DNA of 64,000 nt, taken from positions 1 through 64,000 of the forward strand of contig NZ_JADEWY010000008.1 of assembly GCF_015207375.1 (NCBI RefSeq), in the 5' to 3' direction. The notes beneath the pieces were generated by a model. The model was not told the DNA's origin. It searched no databases and worked only from the letters and a program-made list of their open reading frames with translations. Shown here in pieces: positions 6,601 to 24,425 of the stretch; position 1 is the stretch's first letter; each line of letters starts with the position of its first letter. The DNA comes from Coleofasciculus sp. LEGE 07092 (GTDB lineage: Bacteria > Cyanobacteriota > Cyanobacteriia > Cyanobacteriales > Coleofasciculaceae). The position numbers were made by a program, and so were the translations under genes.

Positions 6601-9600
6601 TGCAATGGATTCTGGATGCCAGGGGTAATACCATGCGCTATGAATACGATAGCGCTGGGAATCTCACACAAATTAAATATCCCGATGGCAGTACGGAAGG
6701 GTTTACAGTAGATGCCCAAGGCAATCTGGCAAGCTACATCAACCGTCGGGGAGAAACGATTACCTACAACTATACCGAAGATGGGTTGATTGCCCAGCAA
6801 ACGAATCCTGGAGAAACTCCAGCTCAATATACCTATGACACAGAAGGCAAGCTGCTTTCTGTCACCGATGCCCAAGGAATGACAACCTTAGACTATGATG
6901 CCAATGACCGTCTAGCAACCATTACTTATCCAAATGGTCGTTTCTTGTCCTTTGAGTACGATGCAGTAGGTCGGCGGACGCAACTTACCGGGTCGGATGG
7001 GTACTCAGTTAAGTATGCCTATGATACGGCGGGTCGTTTGCAACGGCTAACGGATGGCAGTGATGCGCTGATTGTACAGTACAGCTACGATGCAGTAGGG
7101 CGTTTGGCGCGGGAAGATAAGGGTAACGGTACTTACAGTACCTACGAGTATTTTACAGACGGTCAGCTTAAAAGTCTGGTTCACTATGCACCAGATGGGT
7201 CAGTTAATTCTCAGTTTGACTACACCTATGATGCTCTGGGACGGCAAAATAGTGCGGTGACATCGGATGGTGTCTGGACGTATGAGTATGATGCTACAGG
7301 ACAATTGACCCATGCTGTTTTTGTCTCGATTAATCCCCAAATCGCTGACCAGGATTTGACATATATATACGACGCGGCAGGCAACCGGATTCGCACCATT
7401 CACAATGGGGTGACAACGGAGTACACAACTAATAATTTGAATCAGTATGAAACGGTTGGGGATGCGACGTATTTATATGACGAGGATGGAAATTTAATTG
7501 AGAAAACTGAGCAGGGGCAGACTTGGCAGTATGGCTATAACAGTGAGAATCGGTTGGTAAAGGTTACTGCACCGGATGGGTCGATTACGGAGTATGAATA
7601 TGATGTTTTAGGTAATCGTACTGCCACGATTCAAGATGGACAGCGCACTGAGTATTTAGTCGATCCGTTTGGTTTGGGTGATGTTGTTGCTGAGTATGGC
7701 GGAGGTGGTTTAGCGGCTCAATACACTCACGGTATAGGACTGGAAAGTCAGATTGCGTCAGGGAGTTCTAATTACTACGACTTTAATGCGCTCGGGTCTA
7801 CAACAGGCTTGACTGGATCAAGCGGAGGTTATCTCAATCGCTATACTTATCTGCCCTTTGGGCAGGATATTTCGGAGACTGAAACTATTGCCAACGCATT
7901 CGAGTTTGTTGGGCAATGGGGAGTGATGGAAGAGGCAAATGGTCTTGATTTCATGCGGGCACGTTATTACGCAACTGACCTTGGACGTTTCTTGGCGGAA
8001 GATCCACTGAATTTAGAAGGAGGAAATAGTAACTATTATTCGTATGTAGTTAATAGTCCTTTAATAGCAGTTGATCCTCAAGGACTTAAACCTAATTTCG
8101 GTGAAATTGTAAGCACAGGTATAGGAGGTGCAGCTGGTGGTATCGCTAGTGATGCACTTGGAGGTAGCTCTGGTGCTGTTGCTACAGGAATTGGTGCTAT
8201 TGCTGGAAAATTAGGTGGATTCTATGGTGGAAGAGTTGGTCAGCTTGTTGGACTAAATTTAGGACTTGGAGTTGGTTCTCTTTTGGCTCTTCACCCTGTA
8301 GTAGCAATGGCTCTAGCGCTATCTTGGGCATATGGTGGAGGGGTTCTTGGAGAAGCAATTGCAGGAGGAATCGCGGGAGGAATCGCAGGGGCGCTGACAG
8401 CAAGATTAGGTGAACTCATAGCAACAGAGCGTATCGGTAATATCTTCTCCCTCACCCCCGAAGACAAATTCGGTCCTGCAGGCTACGACGCCCCCGACAC
8501 CCCCATAGGCGAAGAAAAACGCTACATCTCCCCCGACGAAAACTTCCACTACCGCATCGACTTCTGGAACGACCCCGACGCTACCGTTCCCACCCAAACC
8601 GCCATTATCAAAGACCAACTCGACCCCAACCTCGACTGGAGTACCTTTGAATTTACCAACTTCGGCTTCCTCGACTGGAACATCGATGTCCCCGGCGGTC
8701 AAACCATCGACACCCGCGTGGATATGCGCCCCCTCTTCAACCTCGCCGTCGATGTCAACGCCACTTTTGACCCCGAAACTGGCGAAATCGAATGGATATT
8801 CCAAGCCGTAGACCCCATCACCGGCGAACTTCCCGAAGACCCCTTCGCCGGATTCCTCCCCCCCTTCAACGAAGACACCAAATACGAACTCGGCTGGGTC
8901 GAATTCACCGTAGACCCCAAAGACGACCTCCCCACCGGCACCCAAATCGCCAACCAAGCCTTCGTCCAATTCGACCTCGTTAATAACTTCAATCCTGCCC
9001 CCAAAGAAGGTCCCTGGATTAACACCATTGACGCTGACGCCCCCAGTAGCACCGTCAATCTCTTACCCGCAACCACCACCAGCGAAGAATTCCTCGTTAC
9101 CTGGTCGGGTACTGATAACGGTAGCGGCATTGCAGGCTACACTGTCTACGTCTCCAAAAACGGCGAACCCTTTACCCCCTGGCTAGAAAACACCCCCCTA
9201 ACCGAAGCCACTTACATGGGTGAAATCGGTAACACCTACGAGTTTTATTCAGTCGCCCTTGATAACACTGGTAATGAACAAAACATCCCCACCGCAGCAC
9301 AAACCATCATCACCCTAGAAGAACCGCCAGTCGTACAAGAAACCATTGGAGAATATGGAACCCTCACCAATCTTGATCACAATTGGCAAACCATTATCCT
9401 CAATCAGAACTACATTAACCCCGTCGTCATCGTTTCCGACCCCACCTTCAATGGGCCCGATCCAGCAACCGTCCGCTTACGGAATGTCACCGGAAACTCC
9501 TTTGAACTGAGAATTCAAGAAACCAACTACAAAGATAATATTCATACAACAGAAATTGTCTCTTACTTAGTGGTAGAAGCCGGAGACTGGGAACTGAGTG

Positions 9601-11009
9601 ATGGCACCCGAATTTCAGCTCGAACCCAACACTCGAACTTACTCTCCTCTCAAGGATTTGAAACAATTCCTCTCTATGGGTTTAACCAAACACCAACGCT
9701 TCTAACCCAAGTCCAAACCTATAATGGCATCGACTGGGTAACTACCCGTACTCAAAACATTACGGCTAATAGTTTTGAGTTTACCATGCAGGAAGAAGAA
9801 GCCTTGAATGGCGGAGCTCATTTAACAGAAACGATTGGTTGGTTAGCCATCGACCAAGGAACAGGTGAAGACAGTCAGACCCTCTTCCAAAGTGGTTTAA
9901 CCAATATCAGTTATGATCACAATCCCCAAAATACACCCTTTGAACCAGGTTTCTTCACTACCACACCTACCCTCTTAGCCAAATTAGGCTCCTATCAAGG
10001 ACCTGACCCGGCTAATCTCCGTTTAGACCATACCATAACTAACTCAGGATTTACAGCCAGAGTTTATGAAGACCAATCCTTTGATTCAGAAATCACTCAC
10101 GTTAATGAACAAATTGCCTTCTTAGCTTTAGAAAACTCCGAAACTAGTGATAAAACAATTAATGCTACTGCTCTGGATTTAGAAGTCAATTTTGGTGAAT
10201 ACGGAACCCTCACCAATCTTGATCACAATTGGCAAACTATTATCCTAAATCAGAACTACATTAACCCCGTTGTTATCGTTTCCGACCCCACCTTCAATGG
10301 ACCTGATCCAGCAACCGTCCGCTTACGGAATGTCACCGGAAACTCCTTTGAACTAAGAATTCAAGAAGCTAACTATAAAGATAATATTCATACCACAGAA
10401 ACTGTCTCCTACTTAGTGGTAGAAGCTGGAGACTGGGAACTGAGTGATGGCACCCGAATTTCAGCCCGAACCCAAAACTCCAACTTACTCTCCTCTCAAG
10501 GATTTGAAACCGTTGCTCTATCTGAATTTGCTCAAACACCAACGCTTCTAACCCAAGTCCAAACCCATAATGGCACAGACTGGGTAACTACCCGTACCCA
10601 AAATATTACCGCGAATAGTTTTGAGTTTACCATGCAGGAAGAAGAAGCCTTGAATGGCGGAGTTCATTTAACAGAAACGATTGGTTGGTTAGCCATCGAC
10701 CAAGGGATTGGTAATGATGGAGATAGTCTCTTACAAGGAGGGTTAACGGAAAGCACCTACACAGATAGTCCAGAAATCGTTAATTTTGAACAGGCTTTCA
10801 ATGAAATCCCCATTGTCTTCGCCAAACTCGGTTCATATTTTGGTAGTGATCCTGCCAATATTCGCTTAGGATCAATTAGCAATTCTGGATTTGAAGCCAG
10901 AGTCTATGAAGACCAATCTTTTGATGCAGAAATTCTCCACACTAATGAACAAATTGCTTTTTTAGCCTTGGGTGATAGTTTGGGATTGTTTACTGGAAGC
11001 TTAATTTAG
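1..11009 (+). CDS. Giant CARDB/RHS/H-lectin surface protein, 5' end outside window
   Basis: The reading frame is open from base 3, so the true start lies upstream. At least 3,668 residues are present. Modules in order: PPC-like beta domains with Asp-rich DGDG-type loops (1-905); six CARDB-type Ig-like repeats of about 366 bp, each with a WTVxNQG core and a [11 protein letters not shown]-like strand (about 915-3110); a right-handed beta-helix-like region (3110-4080); a seventh CARDB (about 4085-4440); PPC- and IPT-like segments; then RHS/YD repeats (about 5690-8087) ending in the classical RHS core with DPQGL at 8073-8087. After this comes a Gly/Ala-rich hydrophobic stretch (8088-8430), a beta-sandwich segment with different codon use (8440-9330), and two 282-residue H-type-lectin-like units. 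It is probably a secreted adhesin or cell-contact protein. A typical RHS toxin tip is not evident. The domain architecture is clear; the function is inferred. Confidence 0.85.
9348..11006 (+). repeat. 846-bp in-frame tandem repeat of H-lectin-like module
   Basis: Two units start at 9348 and 10194, a spacing of 846 bp (282 codons). Long stretches are nearly identical, for example the segments starting [13 protein letters not shown]. Each unit contains about three H-type-lectin-like submodules with repeated P-x-V/L and DPA-x-(V/I)RL patterns. The last third of each unit is more diverged. Confidence 0.85.
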
Positions 11010-17473: not shown

Positions 17474-18106
17474 CTAGGACAACTGACGCTTGGGCCACTG
17501 ATAAGCAGTTCTGGAAGTCGGCGAAGTTAAAGGAGTAGTTGCCTCTACATTTCCGAGTGGAGACTTACCATGACTCCTTTGGAAGATTTGGTGAGCCATT
17601 AAAACCATCAGTGCTTCAAAGACTGACGTTTTATCATTGGGATTGACTGTTACAATGGGTGGTCGCACCTTGTCATTCATAAAACCCAGACCAAACAAGA
17701 CGTGTTCGTGACCCAATGCTCCTGGTAAATCCATGCAGGTTAGACCAATAATCATCGGGATTTGAACTCGCTGATTCATAAAGGTCATAATTTCGCGAGC
17801 ATCGTTGAAAGAACTAGAACGATTAGCTGCCACCAGCAGAATATAAGCATGGGCTCGGCGAATCAACAAATCCCACATAAAATCAAAGCGTGATTGACCA
17901 GGAGTACCATAGACTTGCAATTCTATGTCTCGTCCCAACATCCGCGTACCGAAATCGAAAGCAACAGTAGTTTTTCTCTTCATCAATGCTGTATCGTCGG
18001 TGGCTTTACGTTCTGTGTCTACAACTGCAGTTTGACTGAATGTTCGGACAAAAGTAGACTTTCCAGCGCCTACCGTTCCGCTTACTACTAAACGCATTGT
18101 TTCCAT
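17474..18106 (-). CDS. Ras-like small GTPase (Rup/MglA-like), cassette 1
   Basis: 210 residues. The P-loop GTVGAGKST is at residues 10-18, a switch-I-like TTVAFDFG follows, and YGTPGQSRF replaces the usual DxxGQ. LTCMD stands in for NKxD, lacking the Lys. The fold matches prokaryotic Ras-like GTPases that lie next to roadblock genes (the MglA and Rup families of the literature). It should be a cytoplasmic nucleotide-dependent switch. About 28 C-terminal residues rich in Ser/Thr/Pro have no counterpart in the paralogue at 21866-22414. It is the last gene of the minus-strand cassette, 174 bp downstream of a roadblock gene. Altered Walker B and specificity motifs make the hydrolysis rate and base preference uncertain. 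Confidence 0.85.
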   Translation of the reverse strand: METMRLVVSGTVGAGKSTFVRTFSQTAVVDTERKATDDTALMKRKTTVAFDFGTRMLGRDIELQVYGTPGQSRFDFMWDLLIRRAHAYILLVAANRSSSFNDAREIMTFMNQRVQIPMIIGLTCMDLPGALGHEHVLFGLGFMNDKVRPPIVTVNPNDKTSVFEALMVLMAHQIFQRSHGKSPLGNVEATTPLTSPTSRTAYQWPKRQLS

Positions 18107-18240
18107 TTATTTTACTCCGCAAAAAACTCGCCAAAACGTCTTAATTAAGTCAATGAATAACTAGTGAGGTACATTTAGTTTTTGTACCTACTCTTTACTC
18201 TTTACTGCCTATTTCCTACTCCCGGAAATCCAGGACTTTG

Positions 18241-18267
18241 TACCTCACCCGATAAAGAAACGCTATA
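18241..18267 (-). repeat. Dispersed 27-bp repeat, copy A
   Basis: The reverse complement matches 36383-36409 at 25 of 27 positions (TATAGCGTTTCT...GGTGAGGTA). A more diverged relative is at 36487-36513. It sits just after the roadblock stop codon. Confidence 0.65.
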
Positions 18268-18280
18268 CAGACTGCCTCAA

Positions 18281-18652
18281 CTACAGCAAAGCTGATTTCA
18301 ATTCAGAAAGGGTGCGTTTAATTTCCAACATCAAAACACCCTGTTTTGCCGCCTTGCTTGCTAGCACCAAAAAGACTGCATCCTCTCCACAACTGGTGAG
18401 GATGCTAAACCCCTCTTCACCCTCAACATAGATGCGATCGATTGCACCCCGCGCCAGTTCTCGACCAATTCGTTCGCCCAAGGATAGCATCGCGGCTGAC
18501 ATGGCAGATACCCGCTCATCATCCATACCTCCCGGCAAGCTAGAGGCTAGAGGTAAACCATCTGGAGTAACCATAGCTGCACCTTGAACATCTGATGTTG
18601 CTGTCACAAAAGTTTGGAGAATATATCCCAATTTTTCAGTATTGATTGCCAT
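18281..18652 (-). CDS. Roadblock/LC7 domain protein, cassette 1
   Basis: A 123-residue single-domain roadblock/LC7 protein. Such proteins (MglB type) dimerise and serve as partners or GAPs of small GTPases. I chose ATG 18652 (MAINTEKLGY) because both paralogues start at this point; an in-frame start six codons upstream is possible. The conserved core has AMVTPDGLPLASSLPGG, DDERVSAMSAAMLSLGER and IYVEGEEGFSILTSCGED, nearly the same in all three copies. It lies between the protoglobin gene (57 bp upstream) and the GTPase gene, consistent with one transcript and a three-part signalling unit. Confidence 0.9.
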   Translation of the reverse strand: MAINTEKLGYILQTFVTATSDVQGAAMVTPDGLPLASSLPGGMDDERVSAMSAAMLSLGERIGRELARGAIDRIYVEGEEGFSILTSCGEDAVFLVLASKAAKQGVLMLEIKRTLSELKSALL

Positions 18653-18709
18653 TGTTGTAATTTGGGTCAAATGTTAGAGATTGCAATACAATTAACTCAC
18701 AGTTCGGGT

Positions 18710-19258
18710 CTAAGCAGCACCGCTTGCAATCAGACGCTTAAACAGACTCTCAGTCCATCCAGTTTCTTTCAAAACAGCCGCCTCACTGACTTCTATATAG
18801 GCTTGCTCGATAAAGGCTAAATCAATCATGCAAATTCGGCTGAGAGCCTCCTGAAGTGCTTCAGGTTTTTCATCTGCCTTGAGGCGCTTTCTCACTTCAC
18901 AAACTACTGCTGCCATTGCTGGAACAACGTGTTGAGGTCCGATTCCAACCCGAACGTGTATTAAACCAATTCGCCAACGACGCTCGGCGTAAGACTTTCC
19001 CCAATGATCTATGCCCGTGAACATTTCGCTAAACCATTCAATAAAGGTGTCCCTTAGGCGATGGATACGTTCTTCTGTACTATTTAAAATAGCATTCATT
19101 TCCGGGTCACTCCCCAAGTAAGCATAGAAACTAACTGCCATTTCAGGAGCGATTTCTCTTCCCCAATCTGCATAGGAGTTTAGAATAGCTTTGTCTTCAC
19201 TTGTTAAACTAATTCGCTCCTCCAGCTTGGATAAGAATGCATGGGGATCTAAGGTCAT
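18710..19258 (-). CDS. Stand-alone protoglobin (globin-sensor domain), cassette 1
   Basis: 182 residues made up only of the protoglobin/globin-coupled-sensor heme domain, with no fused output domain. The proximal heme ligand is most likely His101 in GLIHVRVGIGPQHVV, conserved at the same residue number in the paralogue. The family binds heme and senses O2, NO or CO. As the first gene of a cassette with a roadblock protein and a GTPase, it is a natural input module whose output would go through the partners rather than a fused kinase or cyclase. A 19-bp element conserved in both cassettes lies 42 bp upstream of the start. Confidence 0.85.
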   Translation of the reverse strand: MTLDPHAFLSKLEERISLTSEDKAILNSYADWGREIAPEMAVSFYAYLGSDPEMNAILNSTEERIHRLRDTFIEWFSEMFTGIDHWGKSYAERRWRIGLIHVRVGIGPQHVVPAMAAVVCEVRKRLKADEKPEALQEALSRICMIDLAFIEQAYIEVSEAAVLKETGWTESLFKRLIASGAA

Positions 19259-19300
19259 AACCTTCTCCTCTATAAATTAATTTATCAGAATTACACTATT

Positions 19301-19319
19301 TAAGTTGTAGCAAGTTAAT
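19301..19319 (-). promoter_or_regulatory. Conserved leader element upstream of protoglobin 1
   Basis: TAAGTTGTAGCAAGTTAAT (plus-strand reading) matches 23785-23803 upstream of protoglobin 2 at 17 of 19 positions and sits at the same distance (42 bp) from the start codon. It is surrounded by diverged AT-rich sequence, which suggests selection. Confidence 0.55.
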
Positions 19320-19478
19320 TGGATAAATGGTTGCTATTTGAACTTCCTGTATATGAAGTTTCTGTTGACTTTTCGTGATTTTTTTAAAATCAATCTCTCA
19401 ATAAAAAAAATCGAGAGGGGATATTTTTTAAGCTGAATACTCATCCCGGATAACTTGCTCTATAAATCTTTTCAGGAA

Positions 19479-19497
19479 GTTAGCCCTTAAATCCGGA
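19479..19497 (-). promoter_or_regulatory. GTTAG-N4-TAAATCCGGA motif, copy 1
   Basis: This motif occurs three times in the window (also 23982-24000 and 24407-24425), each time upstream of a protoglobin cassette. This copy lies 221 bp upstream of protoglobin 1. TAACTT (19451-19456) can pair with AAGTTA (19477-19482), placing the GTTA part in a hairpin arm. The surrounding 19320-19680 region is AT-rich and has no gene. Confidence 0.55.
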
Positions 19498-19732
19498 TGG
19501 TTGCTGTACGAGTAAGCTATTTTTCGTTTAGTTTGTACAAGTTAGGACACTCAAGATGCCCATCTGACAAGAATTTTAATACTGTATAGTTTTACGAATT
19601 TAAACAACAAACAAGTTGTTTAAAATAAGAAAAAATCCTTTGAGTGTTATATCAATCAATGATTAGTAAGGAGTAGGAAATAGGGAATTACAGCGGTTTT
19701 CAAGTTAATGGACTACATTTTGACCCCCCTAG

Positions 19733-19751
19733 CCCCCCTTATCAAGGGGGG
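19733..19751. repeat. CCCCCCTT-ATC-AAGGGGGG palindrome
   Basis: A perfect 8-bp stem with a 3-nt loop, the common cyanobacterial C-run/G-run intergenic palindrome. A shorter relative is at 36532-36548. Confidence 0.75.
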
Positions 19752-19846
19752 AACTGCACCACACCGACTTGAAAAGTACTGTGAAATTTCTCTCATTACA
19801 TTTTTGACGGCAACTTGGTACGGTAAATTTCTTCTGCAAAAGATTT

Positions 19847-20424
19847 TTACCGACTCCAAAAGAACAAGAACACCCCCAGAACACTCGCCAGCACCAAACC
19901 GCCAAAGAGATAGAGAAGGCGACGGCGAGGTTGAAGCTTCCCAGTTTTGGGAGATGTATCTAACTCCTGTCCTTTGAGAGAGTGTAACCATTCTGCGACT
20001 CGTTTAGACTTTGGTAAGTCTGGGTGTAGCTTAAAAAACCAGCCAGCACCTCCAATGGTTCCAAGGGCTGACCTTCCGTACCCCGGAGGTTAACGTAGAG
20101 TTGAGCATCGGGAAAATCTGGCTTTAATTGATGGGCAACATGAAGCGCCAGAGCAGATTTACCCACACCTGCCGCACCCGTTACTACAGAAATCAGGGGC
20201 GTTTTTTCTTGTCCGAGGGTTGCTTGTCGCAGTTGAGCCGCCACCCTATCCAATTCGGCTTGACGACCGATAAAGTCAGTAAGATCAGAAGGAAGATGAT
20301 GGGCGAATGTGGGTTGGGTTACATTCCCCTGAAGAATCTGCTTAACTTTGCTAGGGTCAACGGCTATTGCATCTTGTACTAAACCGTGAAAGTGCAGTTC
20401 GTATCTTGATATCTCTCCAGCCAT
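19847..20424 (-). pseudogene. Truncated NB-ARC/AAA ATPase gene fused to a foreign tail
   Basis: The first 120 or so codons look like the N-terminal part of an NB-ARC STAND protein: DFIGRQAELDRVA, a P-loop GAAGVGKSALAL, and NLRGTEGQPLEPLEVLAGFL. Homology then stops abruptly at LAGFL, where the family normally continues with the rest of the nucleotide-binding domain. The frame ends at 19960, but a shifted frame after a T-run near 20035 encodes about 60 residues with a membrane helix (LLYLFGGLVLASVLGVFLFF) and stops at 19847. I read this as a deletion that joined two gene ends, plus a frameshift. It separates the two signalling cassettes and is probably not functional. Confidence 0.6.
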
Positions 20425-20448
20425 TTATTACTCCCTACTCCCGTTCGA

Positions 20449-20478
20449 CTGACGCTCACGGCAAAAGCCTACTCCCTA
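20449..20478. repeat. Dispersed 30-bp repeat, second copy
   Basis: Matches 14079-14108 at 29 of 30 bases and is likewise flanked by ACTCCCTACTCC-type heptamers. Confidence 0.7.
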
Positions 20479-20580
20479 CTCCTAATAACTAAAATCAAAG
20501 ATTCCCCTACCAATTTACAGCAGCGGATGTTTGATAATAAGGGAACCTTTGATTATCGGGGTAATTTACACCTGAAATGA

Positions 20581-20949
20581 CTACAGTGCCAGTTTTAATT
20601 CGCCCAGTGTCCGTTTAATTTCTAACATTAAGACCCCTTGCTTGGCTTCTTTAGTAGCCAGGACAAGGAAGACAGCATCCTCACCACAACTGGTCAAAAT
20701 ACTAAAACCTTGATGACCCTCAACATAGATGCGATCGATGCCACCTCGGACGAGTTCTGTCCCAATCCGCTCACCCAACGATAGCATAGCGGCAGACATC
20801 GCCGATACACGCTCATCATCCATGCCTCCGGGCAGGCTAGATGCTAAAGGTAAACCATCGGGTGTCACCATTGCAGCACCTTCAACATCACTGGTTCCTG
20901 ATACGAAGGTTTTGAGGATATGTCCTAGTTTTTGGGTATTGATAGCCAT
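20581..20949 (-). CDS. Roadblock/LC7 domain protein, middle copy
   Basis: 122 residues, very similar along its whole length to the two cassette roadblock proteins (MAINTQKLGHILKTF at the start, IYVEGHQGFSILTSCGED in the core, MLEIKRTLGELKLAL at the end). It has no adjacent GTPase or protoglobin of its own. Instead it follows the possible V4R-like gene by 128 bp on the same strand. It could form mixed dimers with the other two, or pair a different sensor with the same GTPases. Confidence 0.88.
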   Translation of the reverse strand: MAINTQKLGHILKTFVSGTSDVEGAAMVTPDGLPLASSLPGGMDDERVSAMSAAMLSLGERIGTELVRGGIDRIYVEGHQGFSILTSCGEDAVFLVLATKEAKQGVLMLEIKRTLGELKLAL

Positions 20950-21077
20950 TGCTGTACTCCCGTTTCAATTTCAAATAATACGAAGCGATTAGAATTGATT
21001 CGGTAGAAGCAACCTGAAATTGAGTGATGAATAGCCCTCTTAAGACTGTGCGATAGGGGTTGTTCGTGTTAATTTAC

Positions 21078-21563
21078 TTACCCCATAACACTGTATTGAA
21101 GAACGTCGTGAGTGCCACCGCGCAAGACAGATTCAGTTTGTGTTCCCCGCAAGCGCTTACCGAAAAAGGCTTCTAAGAATCCCTGAATGGCTCCCATAGT
21201 GTAGGTACACTGACGGGATGAACCTTCTTCTTCACCAGCCGAGCAAATGGTTTCTCGCGTATAGACTTTGTACAACTCGCCTTCTTGCTCGACTTTATCC
21301 ACAATGCACAAACGAGTCCCGTCTTTACCGATGATATCGTTAACTTTTGATGCCACGTCTGTCAGGGCAACTCCCTCACCCTTGCCAACTAAGCCAAGCT
21401 CTTCAGCCAAGCTTTTACCACGCTGGCGTCCCGCTGAAATCAGAGCGATCGCGGCGGCTTTTTCTCCGAGAGCTTCTTCAACACCAGTAACGATCGCTTT
21501 CGTGCAAACAACGCTACTAAAATTTCCTAGTTCGTGACGCAATGCATTTTGTGCTATTGACAT
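21078..21563 (-). CDS. Conserved hypothetical, possible V4R-like ligand-binding protein
   Basis: 161 residues. The N-terminal half begins SIAQNALRHELGNFSSVV and is helical in character. The C-terminal half has paired cysteines (RETICSAGEEEGSSRQCTYTMG) followed by IQGFLEAFF, reminiscent of the C-terminal motif of V4R (4-vinyl reductase) small-molecule-binding domains. I cannot confirm that family by eye. Its place upstream of a roadblock gene, in the same position that protoglobin takes in the flanking cassettes, suggests an alternative sensor for the same switch (inference). There is no signal peptide and no membrane helix. Confidence 0.5.
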   Translation of the reverse strand: MSIAQNALRHELGNFSSVVCTKAIVTGVEEALGEKAAAIALISAGRQRGKSLAEELGLVGKGEGVALTDVASKVNDIIGKDGTRLCIVDKVEQEGELYKVYTRETICSAGEEEGSSRQCTYTMGAIQGFLEAFFGKRLRGTQTESVLRGGTHDVLQYSVMG

Positions 21564-21865
21564 AGAATTTACCTCTCTTTAGGGGTTAATCTGAATGGAC
21601 TGAATGGGAATAAATCTGACAATAATTCCCTGGAAAATTCGCTATTAGTAGATACAATCCTAGGTCTAATTCTCTATTACTATTTTAGTAGTTATTATCT
21701 GCTACTGTCTGCTTTTTTTGAAATGATTTTGTTAAGAAAATCTATTCTTGTTTATTGATTTATAAAAAAATAACCGACTAGCATGGTTAATGCTTCGGTC
21801 ATTTAATAAATAGCAAGCTTTTTTGAATTTAAAACTTGTTCCAGCTCATTCCATTCAGTATTGAA
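21564..21865. other. AT-rich intergenic gap, no gene seen
   Basis: 302 bp between the second GTPase and the V4R-like gene. It contains T-rich tracts and several TTTATT-type stretches but no convincing hairpin, ORF or repeat. It probably holds the promoter of the V4R-like gene. Confidence 0.4.
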
Positions 21866-22414
21866 TCAGAATTTATCTGTTACCTCAGATTTATCAGTTA
21901 GCTTGAGCAAAACTTTTAAAGCTTCAACGACCGAGGTTTTAACATGAGGATTAACGGTGAGAATGGGGGGGCAATTTTTATCATTTACTAAGCCCAAGGC
22001 TACCAAAATCTCTTCTGAAGCTAATGCTTCTGCACAGTCCGTATGAGTCAAACCCACAATCATCGGGACTTGTACTCGCTCTTTCATAAACGAAAAAATT
22101 TCGTGGGCGTAGGAAAAACCACTAGGTTGATTGGCAGCGACTAATAGAATATAAGCATCAGCTCCCTTGATTAAAATATCCCACATGAAATCAAAGCGAG
22201 ATTGACCGGGAGTACCGTAGATGTGCAAATCCATATTGGCACCCAGAACGAGTTTCCCAAAATCAAAAGCAACCGTGGTTGTTTCCTTAAATGAAGAGAT
22301 TTTATCTGTGGCACGACGTTCTACTTCTACTACATCAATTTCACTAGCTGTCCGCACAAAGGTAGACTTGCCAGCTCCGACAGTTCCTGTTACAACGATA
22401 CGCAGACTTTCCAT
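21866..22414 (-). CDS. Ras-like small GTPase (Rup/MglA-like), cassette 2
   Basis: 182 residues, a clear paralogue of the protein at 17474-18106. It has the P-loop GTVGAGKST, switch TTVAFDFGK, YGTPGQSRFDFMWD, and LTHTD in place of NKxD. It lacks the Ser/Thr-rich tail of the other copy and ends DKSEVTDKF. Divergence from the first copy is moderate, so the cassette duplication is old rather than recent, and both copies keep every recognisable motif, which suggests both are in use. It follows the roadblock gene at 22652-23023 by 237 bp. Confidence 0.85.
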   Translation of the reverse strand: MESLRIVVTGTVGAGKSTFVRTASEIDVVEVERRATDKISSFKETTTVAFDFGKLVLGANMDLHIYGTPGQSRFDFMWDILIKGADAYILLVAANQPSGFSYAHEIFSFMKERVQVPMIVGLTHTDCAEALASEEILVALGLVNDKNCPPILTVNPHVKTSVVEALKVLLKLTDKSEVTDKF

Positions 22415-22651
22415 GGACTTTTTCTCCGCAAAAACCTACCCAACTGATTGAGCTGTTAATGATTGAAGGTAGGGCGGTAAGCTGAAACACTTAATCTGCA
22501 ATTTTTTTATCTGAGAGGAAGAGTTTTATTTTCGCTTCAGCTAGGTTATACAGGTTAGATGTACAGCAACTTATCGCCTAGCTTAGTTCAAGATCCAATA
22601 ACCAGGAGGGCTAGAACCTAACTGCCTGCTCCTGGAAATTTTTCGACTTGA

Positions 22652-23023
22652 CTAGCCTATAGCTGACTTTAGTTCTGTGAGCGTCCGTTTGATTTCTAAC
22701 ATCAGAACTCCCTGCTTTGCCTCTTTAGTCGCCAACACTAAGAAGACAGCATCCTCACCACAACTTGTCAAAATGCTAAAGCCTTGATCACCCTCAACAT
22801 AGATGCGATCAATGCCACCTCGAGAGAGTTCTTTGCCAATTCGTTCACCCAATGACAGCATAGCAGCAGACATAGCGGAAACCCGCTCATCATCCATGCC
22901 TCCGGGCAAGCTAGAAGCTAGCGGTAAACCATCGGGCGTAACCATAGCTGCACCCTCAACATCACCGGTTGCCGTCACAAAGTTTTTGAGGATATACCCC
23001 AGTTTTTCAGAATTGATAGCCAT
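22652..23023 (-). CDS. Roadblock/LC7 domain protein, cassette 2
   Basis: 123 residues (MAINSEKLGYILKNF at the start), closely related to the roadblock copies at 18281 and 20581. The conserved core MVTPDGLPLASSLPGGMDDE and the C-terminal VLMLEIKRTLTELKSA are shared by all three. It lies 164 bp downstream of protoglobin 2 and upstream of GTPase 2, keeping the same order as cassette 1. It is expected to bind the neighbouring GTPase as a homodimer. Confidence 0.9.
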   Translation of the reverse strand: MAINSEKLGYILKNFVTATGDVEGAAMVTPDGLPLASSLPGGMDDERVSAMSAAMLSLGERIGKELSRGGIDRIYVEGDQGFSILTSCGEDAVFLVLATKEAKQGVLMLEIKRTLTELKSAIG

Positions 23024-23187
23024 TGTTGTACTCCTGCTGAAATTTTTACAGATTGCGATGGAGTTATAACAATCCTAAATAAGGAACCAACTGGAGTTGT
23101 CAGTATCAGGTTCCCTGTGGAAACAAAAGGTTGCCCATCAAATAGGATTGCTACAACTCGTATACCTTGGAACGGAAAACTCTCAAG

Positions 23188-23742
23188 TTACATAGAATTT
23201 GCGCCAGTGGCAATCAAACGCCGGAACAAACCTTCCGTCCAGCCCGTTTCTTTGAGAACTGCTGCCGAACTCACTTCAACATAAGCTTGCTCAATGAAAG
23301 CTAAATCAATCATGCAAATCCGACCGAGAGCATCCCGCAATGCTTCATCTTTACCAGACGCTTTTAGCTTTTGACCCACCGCATTAACGACGATTGCCAT
23401 TGCTGGGACAACGTGTTGAGGTCCGATACCAATTTGTACATGAACTAGACCAATTCGCCAACGGCGATCAGCGTAAGCATTTCCCCATTCATCCATGCCC
23501 GTAAACATTTCGTAAAACCATTGAACGAAGGTTTCACGTAGACGATGAATCCGCCCTTCTTTGGCATTAATAATGGCACTCATTTCTGCGTCACGACCTA
23601 AATAATCATAGAAATGGTCTGCCATTTCTGAGGCAATTTCTTTGCCCCAATCAGCGTTCTCTTTAAGAAGAGTTTTGTCTTCGCCTGTAAAAGCAATGCG
23701 CTTTTCCATCGTACTCATGAATTCATGGGCATTTAATGCCAT
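23188..23742 (-). CDS. Stand-alone protoglobin (globin-sensor domain), cassette 2
   Basis: 184 residues, a full-length paralogue of the protein at 18710-19258. The likely proximal ligand is again His101 (GLVHVQIGIGPQHVV). DWGKEIASEMADHFYDYLG, RIHRLRETFVQWFYEMFTGMD and the C-terminal AVLKETGWTEGLF are shared with copy 1. There is no fused output domain. It is the first gene of cassette 2. Upstream it carries the same leader element and TAAATCCGGA motif as copy 1, so the two are probably controlled alike. Confidence 0.85.
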   Translation of the reverse strand: MALNAHEFMSTMEKRIAFTGEDKTLLKENADWGKEIASEMADHFYDYLGRDAEMSAIINAKEGRIHRLRETFVQWFYEMFTGMDEWGNAYADRRWRIGLVHVQIGIGPQHVVPAMAIVVNAVGQKLKASGKDEALRDALGRICMIDLAFIEQAYVEVSSAAVLKETGWTEGLFRRLIATGANSM

Positions 23743-23784
23743 TTCTATCTCCTGTTGGTGTTAAATGAATGGTGATTTCCCCTT

Positions 23785-23803
23785 TTAGTTGTAGCAATTT
23801 AAT
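23785..23803 (-). promoter_or_regulatory. Conserved leader element upstream of protoglobin 2
   Basis: TTAGTTGTAGCAATTTAAT (plus-strand reading), 17 of 19 identical to 19301-19319, at the same 42-bp distance from the start codon. Confidence 0.55.
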
Positions 23804-23981: not shown

Positions 23982-24000
23982 GTTAGGAATTAAATCCGGA
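23982..24000 (-). promoter_or_regulatory. GTTAG-N4-TAAATCCGGA motif, copy 2
   Basis: It lies 239 bp upstream of the protoglobin 2 start, against 220 bp for copy 1. CCTAAC (23966-23971) pairs with GTTAGG (23982-23987), so the GTTAG half again lies in a hairpin arm. Confidence 0.55.
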
Positions 24001-24406: not shown

Positions 24407-24425
24407 GTTAGGGGTTAAATCCGGA
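24407..24425 (-). promoter_or_regulatory. GTTAG-N4-TAAATCCGGA motif, copy 3
   Basis: The third copy is about 664 bp upstream of protoglobin 2 and 109 bp beyond the 3' end of the oxidoreductase gene at 24534. TTAACC (24391-24396) pairs with GGTTAA (24413-24418). It may mark a second promoter or a small RNA; its role is unknown. Confidence 0.45.

Follow-up and report, generated by a model that had tools for sequence, protein, structure and literature searches.

A stretch of 64,000 nt from Coleofasciculus sp. LEGE 07092 (contig NZ_JADEWY010000008.1, positions 1 to 64,000; hereafter the window) carries two minus-strand cassettes of identical order, each encoding a single-domain globin (PGb, PGa), a roadblock protein (RBb, RBa) and a small GTPase (GTPb, GTPa). 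We consider that this locus represents, in duplicate, a conserved cyanobacterial module composed of heme globin, MglB-type roadblock protein and MglA-family GTPase, usually accompanied by a DUF4388/PATAN protein and often by a V4R protein. Read from right to left, the genes are PGb, RBb, GTPb, a V4R-like gene, a third roadblock gene (RBc), PGa, RBa and GTPa (Table 1). Both cassettes, as well as the V4R-like and roadblock genes between them, had been described in an initial annotation made from the sequence; all these genes were found in place, with families assigned by Pfam and the V4R fold by an AlphaFold model. It is very probable that globin, roadblock protein and GTPase work in one pathway. 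The evidence consists of protein families, conserved neighbourhood, co-occurrence, heme residues, a conserved globin tail and purifying selection.

Conservation was followed in two samples: the best 80 loci of a scan of contigs with the globin profile, and 291 genomes drawn evenly from the phylum, selected independently of the globin. All 80 loci are cyanobacterial by record title. Among the 291 genomes, the Protoglobin family is present in 30, the roadblock family in 43 and the GTPase clade of the window in 26. Globin and roadblock occur together in 27 genomes, globin only in 3, roadblock only in 16 and neither in 245 (Fisher p = 1e-23, the test taking related genomes as independent), by which a chance neighbourhood is rejected. 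The globin is also found in 24 of the 26 genomes bearing the GTPase; it is missing from the remaining two (G085 and G290), which retain V4R, roadblock, GTPase and PATAN genes. A same-strand roadblock gene lies within 3 kb of 26 of the subfamily's 33 globin genes in these 291 genomes. The conserved neighbourhood, whose absence the initial annotation had named as a refutation, is thus present: the three genes co-occur, side by side on the same strand, in about 10 family groups of the phylum.

We compared about 110 records of loci with a globin gene, some of them representing one genome counted twice. The commonest order, globin-roadblock-GTPase-PATAN, accounts for 24 of these records; several permutations occur, V4R is present in many records, and roadblock and GTPase are both missing in about 10. 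In compact genomes little DNA separates the genes (in locus L119, for example, about 75 and 37 nt). Such genes might be neighbours merely through co-regulation or travel on a shared island, with no common biochemical pathway, and the patchy spread (about 9% of the 291 genomes) and permuted gene orders would suit this explanation. Nevertheless, the core stays while outside neighbours vary by lineage, and co-occurrence is near all-or-none; we regard this explanation as very improbable. In one genome (G048, L148:7903-8514), a far diverged globin (29% identity) with a similar tail ending takes the globin's place in a globin-roadblock-PATAN-GTPase cluster.

PGa and PGb score well above the cut-off of the Pfam Protoglobin profile (PF11563). 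The best structural match of the PGb model is PDB entry 8H17 (Z 24.3, root-mean-square deviation 1.3 over 157 residues), followed by HemAT, AfGcHK and GsGCS with Z of about 17. All 39 globins compared share His101, Tyr45 and Phe44 without exception, and the first two align with the His and Tyr of AfGcHK and HemAT. As established for these sensors, His101 corresponds to the proximal histidine and Tyr45 to the distal tyrosine holding heme and ligand. The globin may sense a gas, and we consider it likely that it is the input of the pathway.

In fold, proximal His and distal Tyr the window globins resemble globin-coupled sensors (HemAT, AfGcHK, GsGCS). Unlike these, they have no output domain fused in the same chain, being single globin domains of 182-184 amino acids (aa) that end in a short conserved tail, their putative partners being encoded by genes of their own; they may act like a globin-coupled sensor in trans. 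The protein of 8H17, Tlr1989 of Thermosynechococcus elongatus BP-1, belongs to the same globin family (74% identity) but was solved as an isolated globin. Its entry has the full sequence, whereas the structure resolves 157 residues, matching model residues 3-159 only. Beyond the globin fold, 14 of 25 columns of the tail (residues 160-184) are at least 90% conserved. Since this tail is conserved yet absent from the 8H17 structure, it is a candidate partner-docking site. No link of Tlr1989 to a GTPase operon was found in the literature searched, which leaves out most subscription journals.

Both GTPases exceed the cut-offs of the Ras and ATP_bind_1 profiles. They have an intact P-loop, Thr46 and Thr47 are invariant, and GTPGQ is invariant in 40 of 40 sequences. 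The MglA family is defined by a G3 motif without Asp, of TPGQ/TVPGQ type (Wuichet and Sogaard-Andersen 2014), and the window GTPases, with GTPGQ and no G3 Asp, belong to it. The same features rule out the Rup family, in which G3 Asp is conserved; of the earlier assignment "Rup/MglA-like", only the MglA part is thus retained. Within the MglA family, Groups 2-5 are recognized by Thr replacing the Group 1 Arg (the arginine finger), plus GTPGQ (PMC4316618), as is the case here (Thr46, Thr47, GTPGQ). The Group 1 signature (Arg beside the G2 Thr, TVPGQ) is absent, Thr and GTPGQ standing in its place. Neither is the Group 2 (CvnD) signature, NxFD in G4 and DAR in G5, present in these GTPases: G4 reads THxD (TCxD in GTPa) and DAR was not seen. 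Compared with the Group 5 G4 consensus [NT]KxD, Thr and Asp are retained while Lys is replaced by His or Cys. As G4 is mostly THxD without Lys and DAR is absent, no single published MglA group fits by motif.

All three roadblock proteins match Robl_LC7 (PF03259) with 52-57 bits; CvnB5 (3leq) is among their nearest solved relatives (Table 1). Their invariant D31-G32 is, in our reading of the alignment, the published Asp-Gly pair of Group 2-5 partners. An MglA-family GTPase beside a roadblock protein recalls the MglA/MglB polarity module of Myxococcus xanthus and Thermus thermophilus, of which type IV pili are a known output. The window GTPases differ from it in having Thr instead of Arg beside the G2 Thr and GTPGQ instead of TVPGQ, and the clusters in having globin and V4R partners, no RomR-type input being seen in them. 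Actinobacterial conservons (CvnA-CvnD, MglA Group 2) are likewise operons that join a sensor gene to those of a roadblock protein and a GTPGQ-type GTPase, and their CvnB5 is the near solved relative noted above. Here, however, the globin would replace the histidine-kinase-like CvnA and PATAN would take the place of CvnC, NxFD and DAR are missing, and there is no kinase among recurrent same-strand neighbours of the core.

The commonest recurrent neighbour, found in 49 loci and always on the strand of the globin, is a DUF4388 protein (85-97 bits); we take DUF4388 to be equivalent to the PATAN domain. The initial annotation could not see this partner because it is absent from the window cassettes. 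Elsewhere in the same genome, a roadblock-PATAN-GTPase-PATAN cluster lies on contig 150 (G000:C150) and a V4R-roadblock pair on contig 113 (G000:C113). Roadblock genes near PATAN were noted earlier (Makarova 2006, as cited in PMC4316618); globin and V4R, which distinguish clusters of the window type, are unmentioned in PMC4316618.

In Synechocystis, PATAN response regulators have been connected with type IV pili, PixE being proposed to bind PilB1 (PMC7690835). In G085 (L163:7957-15800), the V4R-roadblock-GTPase-PATAN genes lead on, without change of strand, to genes for PATAN-REC, CheY, CheW and GAF proteins, and in G066 (L166:6296-9851) a second roadblock-V4R-PATAN set adjoins a related response regulator of PATAN-REC type. 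The PixE/PilB1 link together with these neighbours makes type IV pili the leading guess for the output, a tentative one whose chances we put a little below even.

The V4R-like protein scores 18.8 bits with Pfam V4R, below cut-off. A sequence-profile search found no solved relative of it, and the fold was therefore taken from its AlphaFold model (predicted local distance difference test, pLDDT, 84.5). The model matches MopR (Z 16.2), PoxR (about 16), Thorarchaeal TRAPPC3 (14.1) and Bet3 (about 13), so that by its predicted structure the protein has the V4R/Bet3 fold. The MopR and PoxR matches are phenol-sensing domains; the V4R protein possibly gives a second ligand input. V4R/Bet3 fold, roadblock-like protein and small GTPase also come together in TRAPP and in the Asgard Rab-roadblock-TRAPPC3 sets. 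The present system differs in being bacterial, operon-like and associated with a globin; the likeness is one of parts only. Next to V4R genes, an SIS-domain (GKRP-like) gene was observed in two genomes (L163:6386-7372, L169:8835-9833), and in the genome of the window a TPR protein gene (L150:12630-13832, G000:C113) comes immediately after the V4R-roadblock pair, on its downstream side.

These data can be arranged into a working model. The globin would bind O2 (or NO/CO) at its heme, and the ligand state would alter docking of the C-terminal tail, in trans, to the roadblock dimer, the GTPase or both. Docking would in turn shift the GTP/GDP state of the GTPase, the GTP form of which would engage a PATAN effector with type IV pili or their chemosensory system as its target. 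A second, hydrophobic-ligand input might come from V4R, and in the genome of the window another locus would provide the PATAN partner. Gas sensing by the globin, physical interaction of the proteins, the direction of signalling and the pilus output are what we infer here. In its general form, a roadblock/GTPase switch receiving its input in trans from a globin, we lean towards this mechanism.

Several observations weigh against the model. The window cassettes are without PATAN, and the spacing of their genes (about 57-302 nt) is no proof of co-transcription. The pilus output, plausible by analogy, draws on two loci besides. Seven of the 33 globin genes, each from family group f6, have no roadblock or GTPase gene nearby; six are second copies in genomes with a full cluster, and the seventh (G239) belongs to a reduced cluster with V4R and partial PATAN. 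Finally, roadblock-GTPase-PATAN genes occur without globin in G000:C150, G054:C16, G085 and G290, and the globin is therefore non-essential to the core. Solo second copies of the subfamily globin in f6 genomes with a full cluster were recorded as loci L126, L134-L137 and L146.

Such solo copies in f6 would suit a role of the globin in detoxification or ligand scavenging (for example as NO dioxygenase or O2 buffer), in which it would be expressed together with the GTPase module without serving as its sensor. The protoglobin of M. acetivorans is known for nitrite-reductase and peroxynitrite chemistry (PMC4020757). On the other hand, the nearest folds are sensor-globin domains, the tail past the globin fold is conserved, and no reductase gene is prominent among recurrent neighbours, so this role appears quite unlikely.

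The globin-less loci lend themselves to another explanation, namely that the roadblock/GTPase/PATAN core is the real pathway, to which globin, V4R and other cofactor proteins are optional, exchangeable inputs, the globin ligand perhaps being no gas. V4R/Bet3-fold proteins elsewhere bind phenols or palmitate, and a Carot_N protein (orange carotenoid protein N-terminal domain) is encoded beside a globin-less core in the genome of the window and, in G056, next to a V4R gene standing alone. Against this stand the invariant heme residues and the presence of the globin in 24 of 26 GTPase genomes, which makes it a nearly fixed part; we hold this explanation to be unlikely, if somewhat less so than detoxification. 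The Carot_N gene of the window's genome adjoins the roadblock-PATAN-GTPase-PATAN cluster (L149:3317-3844, G000:C150), and its counterpart in G056:C10 (L167:7294-7842) encodes a protein 72% identical to it. The Carot_N protein is a possible alternative input.

Kinases and response regulators are the inputs usually considered for Ras-like switches of bacteria. The parts of the module are of known kinds, but in the literature searched, most subscription journals aside, no protoglobin was found together with a roadblock protein, nor was the globin-roadblock-GTPase combination found described. Neighbourhood ties the globin to the switch; if it is a sensor, the switch would have a defined small-molecule input, testable in vitro. 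Free-standing sensor globins of cyanobacteria would thereby gain a job, and oxygen would have a candidate route to influence movement or polarity of O2-producing bacteria. One could even conceive a class of bacterial GTPase systems in which separate cofactor-binding proteins (heme globin, V4R, possibly carotenoid protein) feed one roadblock/MglA switch that steers type IV pili via PATAN, resulting in oxygen-dependent motility of cyanobacteria. As a whole we regard this generalization as doubtful.

Protein identity between the copies within the window is 68% for globins, 59% for GTPases and 88-89% for roadblocks. PGb is 88% identical to the globin of L038 and PGa 75% identical to that of L061, L038 and L061 being contigs of one assembly. 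Each window globin is thus nearer to a relative in other genomes than to its in-window copy and, as judged from these comparisons, the cassette duplication is not recent. The ratio of nonsynonymous to synonymous substitution rates (dN/dS) of window genes against relatives from other genomes is 0.03-0.16; both cassette copies are therefore maintained by purifying selection.

Coordinates are summarized in Table 1. The start of RBa is most likely ATG 18652 and not TTG 18670, the former being preferred because of alignment with relatives.

Table 1. Features of the duplicated locus, from right to left, followed by upstream elements (Pfam cut-offs: Protoglobin 25, Robl_LC7 23, V4R 31 bits)
Feature	Position	Strand	Evidence
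PGb, single-domain sensor globin, 184 aa	23188..23742	-	Pfam Protoglobin 70.8 bits; AlphaFold pLDDT 92.8
RBb, MglB-type roadblock protein, 123 aa	22652..23023	-	Robl_LC7 57.2 bits; PDB relatives 7f8m, 9jue, 3leq
GTPb, MglA-family small GTPase, 182 aa	21866..22414	-	Ras and ATP_bind_1 above cut-off; P-loop, G2 T, GTPGQ, THxD
V4R/Bet3-fold protein (predicted), 161 aa	21078..21563	-	AlphaFold fold; Pfam V4R below cut-off
RBc, third roadblock protein, 122 aa	20581..20949	-	Robl_LC7 52.3 bits; 88-89% identity with RBa and RBb
PGa, single-domain sensor globin, 182 aa	18710..19258	-	Pfam Protoglobin 77.7 bits; 68% identity with PGb
RBa, MglB-type roadblock protein, 123 aa	18281..18652	-	Robl_LC7 56.2 bits; ATG common with relatives
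GTPa, MglA-family small GTPase, 210 aa, C-terminal extension	17474..18106	-	Ras 39.7 bits; GTPb-like motifs
Upstream element of PGa	19299..19319	-	Direct repeat D5, 41-61 nt 5' of PGa start
Upstream element of PGb	23783..23803	-	Direct repeat D5, 41-61 nt 5' of PGb start

Another open reading frame between the cassettes (19960-20424) was rejected as a cassette member, being what remains of a STAND-type ATPase. It corresponds to residues 27-157 and 630-688 of an L049 protein of 688 aa, the middle having been lost; in L049 this relative (7671-9734) itself sits between two cassettes. Both globin start codons are preceded by the 21-nt D5 element, the two copies of which are 90% identical. Further upstream of PGa and PGb, the motif TCCGGATTTAANNNCTAAC occurs in three exact copies (19479-19497, 23982-24000 and 24407-24425); three matches with up to 3 mismatches arose in 4 of 100 shuffles.

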